Below are positions 19,735 to 25,722 of a stretch of DNA of 64,000 nucleotides, piece after piece. The stretch lies in NCBI GenBank assembly GCA_013335115.1, contig JAAXWQ010000005.1:62001-126000 (forward strand), given 5' to 3'. The position numbers and the translations under genes are program-made. Origin of the DNA: Chlorobiaceae bacterium. Its GTDB lineage: Bacteria > Bacteroidota > Chlorobiia > Chlorobiales > Chlorobiaceae. The notes beneath the pieces are model-generated. The model saw nothing but the letters and a program-made list of their open reading frames with translations, was not told where the DNA came from and ran no database searches. Numbering within the stretch: position 1 is the stretch's first letter; the number at the start of each line of letters is the position of its first letter.

Positions 19735-20376
19735 TCAGCTGATGCCGTGCGCTTTTTTATAGGCGGCCCAGTTGCGCTTCAGCTCGATGAAAGCGTCGAT
19801 ATCGGGCTGCAGCAGGAAGGGGTTGGTGCGCTTCTCGTGACCGAGCGTCGAGACTGGGCTGGCGCCGTAATCGTGCCCGGGCCAGACTTTCGTCCCCTCC
19901 GGCAGGCACATCAGCCGCTCGTGCAGGGAGCGGTACTCCCTGCGGGCATCACCGTCGCTCCAAGTGCCTCCGACCTTGCCGACGAAAAGGGTGTCGCCCG
20001 TAAAGAGGCTGTCGCCGCAGAGGATGCACATGGAATCGTCCGTGTGGCCGGGCGTATGGATGATGCGGAGACTGGAGTCGCCAAGCGGAAACTCCGAGCC
20101 GTCAACGAGCGTCATGCCGGTTGCCGGACAGCGGTCGCCGAACAGCAGCACCCTGACGCCGGTCAGGAGCTCGAACTCCCCGTTGCCGTTGCAGTGGTCC
20201 TGGTGGCCATGGGTCGAGAATGCGTAGCCTATGTCCCAGCCGCGATCCCGGGCGAGATCGGCAAGCATGGCCGGCGAGTTGGACGGGTCGACGGCGAAAG
20301 CCGTTCCCGTCCGTTCGTCGACGCAGAGGTACCCGAAATTCCGGTCTCCCCCGGTGCGGAACTGCTCTACCATCAT
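19735..20376 (-). CDS. Metallo-beta-lactamase-fold hydrolase (glyoxalase II / persulfide dioxygenase superfamily)
   Basis: 213 residues. ATG at 20376 is preceded at 8 bases by GAAGGGG; a TTG two codons earlier is too close to that site. Metal ligands are THGHQDHCNG near 60, HTPGHTDDS near 113, GDTLF near 133 and PGHDY near 170, then STLGHEKRTNPFL. The HDY and ST-E-NP region resembles both GloC/YcbL-type glyoxalase II and ETHE1-type proteins. Substrate is therefore open: a thiol ester or a persulfide. Last gene of the repressor-TolC-RND-PII operon, starting 18 bases after the PII-like gene. Confidence 0.75.
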   Translation of the reverse strand: MMVEQFRTGGDRNFGYLCVDERTGTAFAVDPSNSPAMLADLARDRGWDIGYAFSTHGHQDHCNGNGEFELLTGVRVLLFGDRCPATGMTLVDGSEFPLGDSSLRIIHTPGHTDDSMCILCGDSLFTGDTLFVGKVGGTWSDGDARREYRSLHERLMCLPEGTKVWPGHDYGASPVSTLGHEKRTNPFLLQPDIDAFIELKRNWAAYKKAHGIS

Positions 20377-20394
20377 ATTCAAGGCCCCTTCAGG

Positions 20395-20700
20395 TTATAA
20401 CATCTTCTCGACGGCCATCACGAAGGTCCGGGACGGGAATGCCGGATCCGTGGCGACCGGACTCTTCTCAAGCTCAGCCATGATGGCCTCCGCCTTGCCG
20501 TCATCGAGGATGGCAAAGCAGAGCGACGAATACGTGCTCATGTTCTGCTCGCCGGGCCACCATGCCGGCGGCTGTTGGGCGCCATCGCAGGAACACCCCC
20601 TGATGGCTATGTTGCTGAACATGTGCACACCGTGCGACATGAAGAGTTTGCGCACTTTCGGCCTGGACTCTTCGTCCCCGATGATGGCAAGCAGTTTCAT
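20395..20700 (-). CDS. PII-like protein (DUF3240-like) linked to RND pump
   Basis: 101 residues, no signal peptide. The beta-alpha-beta start MKLLAIIGDEESRPKVRKLF and the later SSLCFAILDDGKAEAIMAEL suggest the ferredoxin-like PII fold; small PII-like proteins of this type are found beside RND efflux genes. A central CSCDG is visible but no T-loop tyrosine. The gene begins 12 bases after the RND stop and ends 18 bases before the MBL gene. Function unknown; a regulatory or assembly role for the pump is an inference from position. Confidence 0.5.
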   Translation of the reverse strand: MKLLAIIGDEESRPKVRKLFMSHGVHMFSNIAIRGCSCDGAQQPPAWWPGEQNMSTYSSLCFAILDDGKAEAIMAELEKSPVATDPAFPSRTFVMAVEKML

Positions 20701-20712
20701 GCGTCTTCAGGT

Positions 20713-23700
20713 TTAATGTTGTGTGGCCGTTGCCATCTTTTTCTGTTCGCCCTTCTTCTCACTGAGATAATATACAAGAGGAACGACCACAAGCGTCAGG
20801 ATGGTCGAAAGCACCGATCCCCAGATGAGCGATATCGCCAGGCCCTGGAAGATCGGGTCGAAGAGCATGACCACCGAACCGATGACCACGGCGCCGGAGG
20901 TCAGGATGATCGGGCGGGTACGCACCGCGGCAGACTCGATGACCGCCTGCTTCAGGCCAGCCCCTTCTTCCCTCCTGATCTGGATGAAGTCGATAAGCAG
21001 CACCGAGTTCCTCACCATGATGCCCGCAAGCGCGATCATGCCGATCATGCTCGTCGCCGTGAAGAATGCCCCATGGACGAAGTGGCCGGGGATGATACCC
21101 ACCAGGCTGAGCGGGATGGAGATCATCATGATCAGCGGCGTCTTGAAGGACTGGAACCAGCCGATGATCAGCAGGTAGATGATCACCAGTACCACCGCGA
21201 AGGCCGTGCCGAGGTCCCTGAAGACCTCGAAGGTGATCTGCCACTCGCCGTCCCACTTCAGGGCAAGCTTGTCGTCGTTCTTCGGGACGGAGGTGTAGAG
21301 CGGGTTGATTACCGCGCCTCCCGGCGTCTTGATGGCGGCGATCTTCTTGTCGAGCTCGAGCATCGCGTAGACCGGGCTTTCGGTCACGCCGGCAACGTCC
21401 GCGGTCACATAGACCACGCGGTGCAGGTCCTTGCGGTAGATGCTCTTGTCCTGGACCTTCTCACGGACGTTCACCAGTTCGGAGAGCGGAACCATCTGGC
21501 CGGGACGGAGCCTGGTGGTCAGGGTGCCCATGCCCTGGGACTGGACGAAGATGTTCGAAAGATCCTTCAGCGAGGTCCTGTCCGCCTTCGGCAGCCTGAG
21601 CTGGATGGTGAGCGGCTCGATCTCGCCGGCCATATGCACCAGGCCGACGTCGACGCCGGCAAGCGACATGCGGAGCGTCTGGGCGATCTGCTCAGGGGTG
21701 ACACCGCGGAATGCTGCGCGCTCCTTGTCGATGACCAGGTCGTACACCTTCTGGTCGGCCTCGACCAGCCAGTCGACATCGACCACGCCGGGTGTGGACG
21801 CGAACGTTTTCTTCACCTCTTTGGCCAGCGCGATCTGCGACTGCAGGTCCGGGCCGTAGATCTCGGCCACGATGGTCGACATCACCGGAGGACCCGGCGG
21901 GATCTCGACGATCTTGGCATTGGCGCCGTAACGGCTGGCGATCTCCTGGACGCCGGCCCGCACACGCTTGGCGATGTCGTGGCTCTGTGCCTTGCGCTCG
22001 CCCTTGTTCACCAGGTTCACCTGGATGTCTGCCTTGTTGTCGCCACGGCGCAGGTAGTAGTGGCGCACCAGGCCGTTGAAGTTGATCGGGGCGTTGGTCC
22101 CGACGTAGTACTGGCTGCTCTGCACCTCGGGAACGGTCTTGAGGTAGCCGGAAATCTCCCTGGTCACCTGTTCGGTACGTTCGAGGACCGTGCCCTCGGG
22201 CATATCGATGATGACCTGGAACTCGTTCTTGTTGTCGAACGGCAGCATCTTCATCTGCACCATCTTGAGCGGGACCATGGCCATGGCGCCAACCAGCATG
22301 AGTCCGACCACGCCGAAGGCGAGCCAGGTCTTGAAGGTGCTGTCGATGAACGGGCTCAGTACCTTGTCGAACAGCTTGTAGTAGCCGGTTTTCCTGATGT
22401 CGTACTCTTCATGGTGCCCTTCGTCCGACTTCAGCAGGCGGTAGGAGAGCCATGGGGTCGCGATGAGCGCGACGAGCAGCGAAAAGATCATGGCCAGCGA
22501 CGCGCCGATCGGCATCGGGCTCATGTACGGGCCCATCAGGCCGGAGACGAAGACCATCGGGAGCACGGCGGCGATGACCGTGAAGGTGGCCAGGATGGTC
22601 GGGTTGCCAACCTCGCTGATGGCCGTGATGGCCGCCTGCAGTTTCGGCTGCCGCTTCATGGCGAAGTGGCGATGGATGTTCTCGGCGATGATGATCGAGT
22701 CGTCGACCACGATGCCGGTCACGAAGATGAGCGCGAAGAGCGTCACCCTGTTCAAGGTATAATGGAACAGGTAATAGATCAGGAGCGTAAGGGCGAAGGT
22801 GACCGGCACCGACATGAAGACCACGAGCGAGCCCCTCCATCCGAGGAAAAAGGCGACGACGACGGTCACGGCGAGGATCGCCATCAGCAGGTGCTCGAGG
22901 AGGGTGAACACTTTGTCGGATGCGGTTTCGCCGTAGTTGCGGGTTTCGGTGACCGTGATGTTCTTCGGGATGACCGAGCCTTTCATGCCATCGATGCGCT
23001 CGACCACCTTGGTCGCCAGTGCTGTAGCGTCGGTGCCCTGGCGCTTGGCGACCGTCAGGGTGACGGCCGGGTAGTCGGTACGGTCCTTGTTGCGCGAACC
23101 GGCGCCCCAGCCGAAGCCGGTATAGTTGTTGACCTCTTCAGGTCCGTCGGTGATCCGGGCCACCTGTTTCAGGAATACCGGGCTTGCCCCGTAGAGGCCG
23201 ACGACGACGTTGCCGACATCATCGGCGCTCTGGAAGAAGTTGCCGGTCCTGACGATGACCTGCTCGTCGAGGTTCTTGAAATCGCCCGAAGTCATCTGCG
23301 AATTGGTGACCTGGAGCTGCCTGGCAATCTGGAGCGGCGTGATGTTGTAGCGCTGGAGCATGGCCTTGTCGAGCAGCACGCGGACCTGGCGCTTCAGGCC
23401 GCCCTTGACCTCGACATCGCCGATATTCTCGACCTTCTTGATCTCGTCGGCAGCCTTCAGGGCGATGCGCCTCAATTCGTAGGGATTGCCCTCCTTGCCC
23501 CAGAAGGTAAGGTTGAGCACCGGCACGTCGTCGATGGCCACCTTCTTCATCAGGGGCATCTGGACGCCGGGAGGCATCTTTTCCATGTTCTTCATAAGGG
23601 CCGTCCAGAGCTTGACCATGCTCTCTTCGGTGTTGTCGCCCACGTTGTACCTGACGGTCACCAGGGCGAAGTCGGGCATGGAGGTGGAGTAGACGTAGTT

Positions 23701-23946
23701 GACCCCCTTGATCTCGGTGAGGGAGCGCTCGAACGGCTTCGAGACACGCTCCTCGACCTCGGCGGCAGATGCGCCGGGATAAGGGATATAGATGTCGACC
23801 ATCGGCACGACGATCTGCGGCTCCTCCTCCCTCGGCGTCATGAATGTCGCCATGATGCCGACCAAGAGCGACGCCAGCATGAGCAGCGGCGTTATCTTCG
23901 AATTGATGAACTGCTTTGCAAGCCTTCCGGCGATACCTTCATTCAT
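20713..23946 (-). CDS. RND-family efflux transporter (AcrB/CusA-like)
   Basis: 1077 residues, full length for an inner-membrane RND pump with 12 transmembrane helices and two large periplasmic loops. TM4 contains GIVVDDSIIIAENIHRH, with the adjacent acidic pair of proton-driven pumps; it lacks the heavy-metal (HME) TM4 signature, so a hydrophobic or organic substrate is as likely as a metal. ATG at 23946 sits 9 bases after GAGGAGG; a GTG at 23952 is possible. It lies between the TolC-like and PII-like genes. No membrane-fusion protein gene is present in the 69 bases before it or elsewhere in the operon. Confidence 0.9.
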   Translation of the reverse strand: MNEGIAGRLAKQFINSKITPLLMLASLLVGIMATFMTPREEEPQIVVPMVDIYIPYPGASAAEVEERVSKPFERSLTEIKGVNYVYSTSMPDFALVTVRYNVGDNTEESMVKLWTALMKNMEKMPPGVQMPLMKKVAIDDVPVLNLTFWGKEGNPYELRRIALKAADEIKKVENIGDVEVKGGLKRQVRVLLDKAMLQRYNITPLQIARQLQVTNSQMTSGDFKNLDEQVIVRTGNFFQSADDVGNVVVGLYGASPVFLKQVARITDGPEEVNNYTGFGWGAGSRNKDRTDYPAVTLTVAKRQGTDATALATKVVERIDGMKGSVIPKNITVTETRNYGETASDKVFTLLEHLLMAILAVTVVVAFFLGWRGSLVVFMSVPVTFALTLLIYYLFHYTLNRVTLFALIFVTGIVVDDSIIIAENIHRHFAMKRQPKLQAAITAISEVGNPTILATFTVIAAVLPMVFVSGLMGPYMSPMPIGASLAMIFSLLVALIATPWLSYRLLKSDEGHHEEYDIRKTGYYKLFDKVLSPFIDSTFKTWLAFGVVGLMLVGAMAMVPLKMVQMKMLPFDNKNEFQVIIDMPEGTVLERTEQVTREISGYLKTVPEVQSSQYYVGTNAPINFNGLVRHYYLRRGDNKADIQVNLVNKGERKAQSHDIAKRVRAGVQEIASRYGANAKIVEIPPGPPVMSTIVAEIYGPDLQSQIALAKEVKKTFASTPGVVDVDWLVEADQKVYDLVIDKERAAFRGVTPEQIAQTLRMSLAGVDVGLVHMAGEIEPLTIQLRLPKADRTSLKDLSNIFVQSQGMGTLTTRLRPGQMVPLSELVNVREKVQDKSIYRKDLHRVVYVTADVAGVTESPVYAMLELDKKIAAIKTPGGAVINPLYTSVPKNDDKLALKWDGEWQITFEVFRDLGTAFAVVLVIIYLLIIGWFQSFKTPLIMMISIPLSLVGIIPGHFVHGAFFTATSMIGMIALAGIMVRNSVLLIDFIQIRREEGAGLKQAVIESAAVRTRPIILTSGAVVIGSVVMLFDPIFQGLAISLIWGSVLSTILTLVVVPLVYYLSEKKGEQKKMATATQH

Positions 23947-24015
23947 GTTCACGAGCCTCCTCTGCTCGCTTTTGCGTAACTAATGGTAATCCTTGTCACA
24001 TCCAAACGCGGCTGC

Positions 24016-25332
24016 TTACCTGCCGCCGTAATATTCGAATTCGCTCTTGGCGACACAGTAGTCGTATTTGGCCTGGTTGATCCTGAGCTTCGCCCACGTG
24101 AAGGCCTGCTCGCGCATCAGGAGCTCCAAGGTCATGGCCATGCCCGTCCGGAACTGCTCCCCGATGAAGTCGAGGCTGACCCTGGCTTCGTCAAGGGACT
24201 TCCGGGAGACTTCCACGCGCTGCCTGGCGGTCTGCATCGCCCGCTGCGCCTTGTTGGCCTCCATCACGCTCATCTCCCTGGCCGCCTCGTAATTGTAGCT
24301 GGCTTCGAGCTGCCTGGCCTTGGCCTCCTGGACCTTGCCCCGGGTAGCCATGCCGTCGAAGATGTTCCACTGCATGTTCAGGCCGACGACCCAGCTGGAC
24401 CCCTCAGTGCCGAGGAGGCTGGCATCGTGCCAGTTCTGCTGGGCGAAAGCGTTCAGCCTCGGCAGAGACTGGGCTTTTGCCATGTCGTGCTGGTAACCGG
24501 TCACCTCTTTGAAGGCTTCGAGGGCCTTCAGGTCGCTACGGCCGGCAGTCGCATCCTTTGCGGCCGGCGAAGCTCCATCGACGACCAGCTCACCGGTCGG
24601 CACGATCGTATCGTCGGCCTGGAGCCTCAGCATGGTCCGCAGGGCGTCCTCGGCGTTCTTCATCTCGTTCTGCATCATGAGCTTTTGCTCCCTGAGCTCG
24701 GCGAGGCGTACTTCGGTCGAAAGTTTGTCGGACTTGGTCAGCAACCCCACCTTGAAGGCTTTTGCCGCTTCGGCGCCGTACCCCTGCATGATGGTGATCG
24801 ACTGCTCGATCGATGCAACGTTCTTCCTCGCCGTAATGAGTCCGTAATAGGCCTTCTTCACATTAAGGTCGATGGTCTCGACGGCACGGTCTGACATGAA
24901 CGACTGGGCCCGCTTCGAGCTGGTAGCCAGCGAGCGGCCAATCATGGCGTCGACGTTGATGAGCGGCTGCGTCACCTGGAGCGAGGTATGGAAATCGGTG
25001 ATGGCCGGGGGATGGTTGAGTGCCTGGGGATCGAAATCGGTCTGCGGGTTGGCAATCTCCTGCTGGAGCTTGAACACCAGGTTGGCGCCGGGATCGTTGG
25101 TATGCGTAAAGGTTTCGGAGAGCTGGACCTTGGGCAGGTATGCCTGGCGGCTCTGCACGATCATCGCGTCCGCCTGGTCCACCCTGGCTTTGGCCGCCTT
25201 GAGCGAGGTATTGCGGTCATGCGCCAATCGCAGCGCGTCGTCGAGGGAGAGCCTCATCGCCGCGGCTTGCGCGTTGACGGAAAATGCGAGCCCCGCCGCA
25301 ATCAGGGCCAAGGCCCTTCTGGTTACCTTCAT
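24016..25332 (-). CDS. TolC-family outer-membrane efflux protein
   Basis: 438 residues with signal peptide MKVTRRALALIAAGLAFSVNAQA, then the internally duplicated long-helix pattern of TolC proteins (LSLDDALRLAHDRNTSLKAAKARVDQADAMI; SEFEYYGGR end). It would form the trimeric outer-membrane duct for the adjacent RND pump. ATG at 25332 (or 25335) chosen for the signal peptide; the longer frame overlaps the repressor gene. It starts 2-5 bases after the repressor stop, which indicates translational coupling. Confidence 0.88.
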   Translation of the reverse strand: MKVTRRALALIAAGLAFSVNAQAAAMRLSLDDALRLAHDRNTSLKAAKARVDQADAMIVQSRQAYLPKVQLSETFTHTNDPGANLVFKLQQEIANPQTDFDPQALNHPPAITDFHTSLQVTQPLINVDAMIGRSLATSSKRAQSFMSDRAVETIDLNVKKAYYGLITARKNVASIEQSITIMQGYGAEAAKAFKVGLLTKSDKLSTEVRLAELREQKLMMQNEMKNAEDALRTMLRLQADDTIVPTGELVVDGASPAAKDATAGRSDLKALEAFKEVTGYQHDMAKAQSLPRLNAFAQQNWHDASLLGTEGSSWVVGLNMQWNIFDGMATRGKVQEAKARQLEASYNYEAAREMSVMEANKAQRAMQTARQRVEVSRKSLDEARVSLDFIGEQFRTGMAMTLELLMREQAFTWAKLRINQAKYDYCVAKSEFEYYGGR

Positions 25333-25337
25333 CATCG

Positions 25338-25568
25338 TCAATGTTTTGAAATCAGTTTGATAATCTTCTCCACGCTTTCGGCATCCTGCCTGCTCAGGCA
25401 GTTCTTCAGGTTCCTGTTCAGCACCAGGGCGAAGGTGTTGTCCAGCGCCGCCTTGGCCGCCTGGAACTGCGTAACCACCTTTTCGCACTCCTCTTCCCGC
25501 TCGATCATCCTGATCAGGCCCTGGACCTGCCCGGTGATCTTCTTCAGCCTGAGTATCACATCATCCAT
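25338..25568 (-). CDS. CsoR/RcnR/CstR-family transcriptional repressor
   Basis: 76 residues from ATG at 25568, placed 7 bases after GGAG. All-helical DUF156 fold with RLKKITGQVQGLIRMIEREEECEKVVTQ near the start. The two family Cys are Cys28 and Cys57, spaced 29 apart as in copper CsoR and persulfide-sensing CstR; the position of the copper His (four before the second Cys) is Asn53. That excludes the usual Cys-His-Cys copper site and the His-rich Ni/Co and formaldehyde types, and points to a thiol-based CstR-like sensor. It heads the efflux operon and has an operator-like palindrome 65 bases upstream, so autoregulation is likely. Confidence 0.85.
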   Translation of the reverse strand: MDDVILRLKKITGQVQGLIRMIEREEECEKVVTQFQAAKAALDNTFALVLNRNLKNCLSRQDAESVEKIIKLISKH

Positions 25569-25632
25569 GTGAATCTCCGTTGTAATGGTGTGGGATTGTA
25601 TCATAATTCAAATTTGCAAGGTTAGAATACCC

Positions 25633-25649
25633 ATACCCCCCATAGGTAT
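25633..25649 (-). promoter_or_regulatory. Putative CsoR/CstR-type operator
   Basis: The 17-bp palindrome ATACC-CCCCATA-GGTAT has A/T ends and a C/G-rich centre, the usual shape of operators for CsoR-family repressors. It lies 65-81 bases upstream of the repressor start and is the only obvious palindrome in the leader. Identification is by shape only. Confidence 0.6.
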
Positions 25650-25722
25650 TAATCTACGAAAAAGAAAACCCCTATCCAACAAGGTAAACCTGGTTCGATA
25701 GGGGGCGGGATGGAACAAACAG

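Follow-up and report, generated by a model that had tools for sequence, protein, structure and literature searches.

The window, i.e. the whole 64-kb stretch of DNA that was analysed, harbours on its minus strand an operon in the order repressor, TolC, RND pump, PII-fold protein and MBL enzyme. This gene order confirms the original prediction of an efflux operon with a repressor gene at its head and an MBL-fold gene at its end. The first gene (25338..25568) encodes a CstR-like repressor of the CsoR family. It is followed by genes for a TolC-family outer membrane efflux protein (24016..25308; assigned by PF02321 and synteny, with TIGR01844 below cut-off), an RND efflux permease of 1079 aa (20713..23952; PF00873), a PII-fold protein of 101 aa (20395..20700) and an MBL-fold hydrolase (19735..20382; PF00753). 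A widely kept order was found in Chlorobiaceae, namely DUF1997, repressor, TolC, in some cases a small lipoprotein, RND, PII-like, MBL, CBS and SdhA, while in two loci (L056, L065) the MBL gene directly follows the repressor gene. A terminator-like hairpin with a T-run (25660..25704, minus strand; stem 25669-25704, fold of -22 kcal/mol, z -3.9) stands after the upstream DUF1997 gene and divides it from the repressor operon.

The open reading frame of the repressor is open up to position 25604. Alignment of the homologues showed that they begin at the conserved ATG at 25568, and the protein was therefore defined as 76 aa long. It is the only PF02583 protein encoded in the 2.1-Mb genome, with a score over the cut-off (E 5.5e-21). 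Its predicted sensing site is composed of Cys28, Asn53 and Cys57. The spacing of 29 residues that had been proposed for the two CsoR-family cysteines holds for Cys28 and Cys57, and cysteines with the same spacing were found at the sensing positions of all 70 distinct Chlorobiaceae homologues surveyed. Asn53 is located at C-4, the position of the copper-binding His. The proposed replacement of this His by Asn was verified here and in 66 of the 70 homologues, none of which displays His; it is however not invariant, since Ser is found in the remaining four (Cys-Ser-Cys). The Ser-containing homologues form one subgroup (L121, L122, L161, L162), and in three genomes of this subgroup (G028, G029, G041) a rhodanese gene is present without operator site. 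The repressor scored below the cut-off of the curated models for RicR (42 against 175 bits) and RcnR/FrmR (29.8 against 138 bits and 34.8 against 133 bits).

The structure of the repressor was modelled as suggested in the original prediction. The AF2 model displays three helices (mean pLDDT of 94) and matched in Foldseek with CsoR, InrS and CstR of Streptococcus pneumoniae (7mq1-7mq3), with a TM score of 0.78 to 7mq2. The top PDB match in phmmer was 7mq1/7mq2, showing the same C-x24-N-x3-C spacing. According to the PDB titles, 7mq1 and 7mq2 are S. pneumoniae CstR and 7mq3 is its N55A variant; the protein of 7mq1/7mq2 is also called CstR elsewhere (PMC9774590). Judging from the model, CstR and CsoR are inseparable by fold alone, and the comparison of the Asn and Cys residues with CstR is based on sequences and PDB titles. 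In a tree of 76 columns with low support, the Chlorobiaceae repressors formed a separate long branch which did not join Firmicute CstR, a result that may count against a CstR-like assignment. The closest homologue (93%) belongs to a Chlorobiaceae MAG. Among the relatives searched, many of which are MAGs, a close homologue was detected in 48 of 49 Chlorobiaceae genomes and in none of the other families of the same order. Repressor genes occur in tandem pairs in L043, L055, L064, L069 and L070, with a strong operator upstream of the second copy and, in many cases, a weak one upstream of the first.

Annotated plasmid homologues were used to relate the residue at the Asn/His position to the neighbouring genes, in a small sample hand-picked from match lists. 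All five Asn-type homologues (L194, L195, L196, L198, L200) have sulfur or redox neighbours, namely cstA/cstB, rhodanese, TusA/DsrE/MBL/TauE or thioredoxin/FAD-oxidoreductase/MBL genes, while all five His-type homologues (L199, L203, L204, L206, L207) are located near copper or other metal genes. The Asn/His rule is not the whole story, because two further homologues have neither residue: L197 displays Tyr and is located near rhodaneses, and L201 displays Gly. A separate metal-type paralogue with a Cys-His-His pattern is present in some Chlorobiaceae (L245-L250), with a cation-diffusion transporter gene adjoining it in several cases.

A palindrome of the type ATACC-n7-GGTAT had been proposed upstream of the repressor gene. 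It is indeed present at 25633-25649 and is the sole exact match in the window, where four sites with up to one mismatch were found against 0.58 expected. Alignment of the upstream regions revealed that this 17-mer belongs to a longer element of 23 bp (ATACCnnTACnnnGTAnnGGTAT) which is found before almost all repressor homologues. In the window, the predicted operator is ATACCCATACCCCCCATAGGTAT (25627..25649), a near-palindrome located 58 bp before the repressor ATG. The core was also identified in copper CsoR loci on plasmids of Staphylococcus and Exiguobacterium (L199 and L203 among those matching). As these loci match exactly, the core motif is indicative of the CsoR family and not of the ligand, and the 17-bp palindrome was dropped as evidence for CstR. 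With up to two mismatches, the 23-bp pattern was found twice in the whole genome, and a reversed control pattern was not found. Over 61 Chlorobiaceae genomes about 114 sites were counted against about 36 control matches; most species have one to three sites per genome. Three further 17-mer matches, exact or nearly so, are located within genes (C7:65247, C25:68020) or at a gene end (C6:81351), and for this reason they were not considered as part of a regulon. A third 23-mer with three mismatches (C25:199513) was rejected as well, being no better than the controls.

The second 23-bp site of the genome lies 82 bp before the gene of a single-domain rhodanese. The conservation of this link was investigated in the family's 30 best rhodanese loci, which had been selected independently of the site. 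Sixteen of them have a site with 0-1 mismatches out of 16, and 14 are at background level (6-8 mismatches). Among 525 control promoters from the same lineages, only three showed two or fewer mismatches, and all three are at the repressor locus itself: one lies between repressor and TolC (L040), and two belong to the gene divergent from the repressor (L060, L063). Further links were observed in relatives. Repressor and rhodanese genes are divergent neighbours in Chlorobium ferrooxidans (L067) and in L050, and OsmC and SQR-like genes extend the operon of L067. Three loci (L142, L145, L146) have a site flanked on one side by OsmC-SQR-like genes and on the other by the gene of a small cytochrome c. 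The predicted operator thus precedes both the repressor gene and sulfurtransferase/persulfide genes, as in CstR systems. About half of the rhodanese genes have no site, which weakens this picture; one of these belongs to G014, a genome about 92% complete in which repressor, PII-like gene and close pump homologue were not found.

These data bear on the possibility that the repressor is a CsoR for copper or another metal and controls a metal-exporting RND pump. The identical fold, the operator core common with copper CsoR and the possible export of Cu(I) via RND and TolC are in agreement with it, and a Phycisphaera plasmid carries a CsoR gene (C-H-C) adjoining a TolC gene. The copper His is however missing in every homologue surveyed, Cys-His-His paralogues exist separately in some relatives, and the other site of the genome precedes a rhodanese gene. 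Moreover, no site was found close to either of the two heavy-metal P-type ATPase genes that this genome contains, and the score of the pump is far below the cut-off for CusA/CzcA. Copper is therefore an unlikely effector, and metal control of the operon in general is regarded as very improbable.

The RND permease belongs to a distinct subfamily: plasmid homologues share 40-55% identity with it, and the next matches are generic RNDs with no more than 25%. Ten of the closer homologues (at least 40% identity) on plasmids of other phyla, taken from a plasmid collection that is a convenience sample, were read for their neighbours. Eight of them occur together with SQR and/or ArsR plus rhodanese genes, the exceptions being the Flammeovirga and Vibrio loci. 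The SQR of the Sphingomonas locus matches a solved SQR (E 3e-139). RND pumps are among the likely targets of ArsR-type sulfane-sulfur sensors (PMC12423496), and an SQR-RND operon of Azospira is raised under sulfide oxidation (PMC5358917). A local, xenobiotic-responsive repressor of a multidrug pump would agree with the general AcrB family of the pump, the rhodanese site being then a coincidence. This explanation is hardly credible in view of the frequency of the site at rhodanese genes compared to almost none of the control promoters, and of a pump subfamily that tracks SQR, ArsR and rhodanese genes across phyla.

A sister family (G050, G053) also has the pump (66-69%) and the PII-like gene, together with a full-length adaptor (L294, L295) and a DUF2892 gene, and neither repressor nor operator site was found there. 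Consequently, the pump module is apparently older than its control by a CsoR-family protein. Small Cys-rich proteins with an FNCAQA motif are encoded after the PII-like gene in this family (L294 11158-11952, L295 9871-10236, reverse-complement coordinates). In many Chlorobiaceae, a lipoprotein-like product of 138-151 aa is encoded between TolC and RND (for example L036 9628-10083, L047 9613-10029, L063 9590-10015) and matches the C-terminal part of RND adaptors only. In the lineage of the window, the corresponding interval consists of a gap of 63 bp (23953-24015). Given this gap and the full-length adaptor of the sister family, the pump may work without an adaptor of its own.

The PII-fold protein gave no match in Pfam or NCBIfam, and none was found for it on plasmids. 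Its AF2 model resembles structures of GlnK/PII (E 1.5e-5), and the alignment of homologues revealed that Cys36-x-Cys38 and Cys61 are invariant. The nearest solved structures of the MBL enzyme are of the persulfide dioxygenase (ETHE1) and glyoxalase II types (PDB 4ysb, E 3e-27; ETHE1, E 4.8e-21). In ETHE1, the Arg of the GRTDF segment helps to bind glutathione. This residue is replaced by Gly in all ten aligned members, suggesting that the enzyme is likely to use a different thiol or to catalyse a different reaction. If it were a dioxygenase, it would need O2, which is odd in a strict anaerobe and counts against the reading proposed below.

Taken together, the residues, the operator, the links with rhodanese, OsmC and SQR-like genes and the neighbours of the pump make a CstR-like repressor responsive to persulfides or polysulfides the best reading, and a dithiol repressor with a reactive-sulfur response is considered probable. 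The CstR-like character proposed in the original prediction is thus supported by comparative sequence data, including the Asn/His split on plasmids. In the proposed mechanism, the reduced repressor would bind the 23-bp operator as a CsoR-type tetramer and block its own operon and the separate rhodanese gene. Persulfides or polysulfides that build up would react with Cys28 and Cys57' across protomers, giving disulfide, trisulfide or tetrasulfide links. The repressor would then bind DNA less strongly, and production of the pump, the rhodanese, the MBL enzyme and the PII-fold protein would follow. What is read from sequence and model comprises the residues and the fold, the operator, the composition of the regulon and the conservation, while the chemistry, the tetramer and the derepression are carried over from the CstR literature (PMC9774590). 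We infer that the effector is a persulfide rather than another thiol-reactive species. A role of the pump in relieving sulfur stress is suggested solely by the neighbouring genes.

The same dithiol could also serve a thiol-redox or electrophile sensor (for oxygen, ROS, quinones, HNO, sulfite, selenite or tellurite), with the sulfur genes as part of a general thiol-stress response. Sulfite, selenite and tellurite modify CstR (PMC5016687), disulfide-linked TTHA1953 of Thermus binds DNA less well (PMC10318464), and the regulon of some relatives includes OsmC and a possibly O2-using MBL enzyme. However, rhodanese and SQR-like genes point more specifically to sulfane sulfur, and genes for a peroxidase or a catalase-like protein were not noticed among those under the examined sites, so that a sensor of this kind is judged unlikely. 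Returning to the persulfide-responsive repressor, a bolder extension can be formulated. The RND-PII pair might be a dedicated export pump for sulfane sulfur (persulfide/polysulfide) of phototrophic green sulfur bacteria, gated by the PII-fold protein, whose invariant Cys-x-Cys would read the sulfur status directly. It would work with a truncated adaptor or none, and a CsoR-family sensor would have replaced the ArsR-type SqrR/BigR sensors that control the same pump in proteobacteria and cyanobacteria. This extension is speculative and rather doubtful.

The life of green sulfur bacteria depends on sulfide and involves large polysulfide fluxes. In the literature searched, no description was found of a regulator of this kind for these bacteria, nor of the wiring of a CstR-like repressor to a pump and sulfur-handling enzymes. 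The analysis provides them with a named candidate sensor, a defined 23-bp predicted operator and a small predicted regulon. It also points to an uncharacterised RND pump subfamily that is linked to sulfide stress in several phyla, and export of reactive sulfur is therefore a testable idea. CstR-type sensing, RND pumps as likely targets of ArsR-type sensors (PMC12423496) and the SQR-RND operon of Azospira (PMC5358917) have already been described.

Among the known systems, copper CsoR has the fold and the 17-bp operator core in common with the system described here, from which it differs in that the repressor here has no His ligand and no copper genes are found under the operator. CstR of Staphylococcus aureus, Enterococcus faecalis and S. 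pneumoniae (PDB 7mq1-7mq3) and YrkD of Bacillus licheniformis share the CsoR fold, the two cysteines 29 residues apart and, in the homologues compared, the Asn at the Y position, which is also found in 7mq1 and in annotated CstR. They further share an ATACC...GGTAT-type site near the gene and a regulon with rhodanese and MBL-fold genes. In contrast, the system described here has as its main predicted target an RND pump together with a PII-fold protein. Its 23-bp operator is a double element with n7 instead of the single ATACC-n6-GGTAT of the Staphylococcus and Cytobacillus loci compared, and identity of the repressor to the aligned Firmicute Asn-type proteins is about 30-37%. TTHA1953 is a CsoR-family regulator of sulfur oxidation and thus also has a sulfur regulon; its operator likewise contains doubled TAC/GTA units (TACNNTACNNNNGTANNGTA; PMC10318464). 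Its regulon differs, as it consists of Sox genes that are not located at the regulator locus and has no link to an RND pump. NaHS had no effect on TTHA1953 in vitro (PMC10318464), so a sulfur regulon is no proof of a sulfide effector. Finally, the sulfane-sulfur sensors of the SqrR/BigR type, which are ArsR proteins found with SQR, rhodanese and RND genes, have similar targets including RND pumps (PMC12423496), and their loci contain the same RND subfamily at 40-49% identity. The fold of these repressors is unrelated, and at the locus described here a CsoR-family protein holds the place of the regulator.
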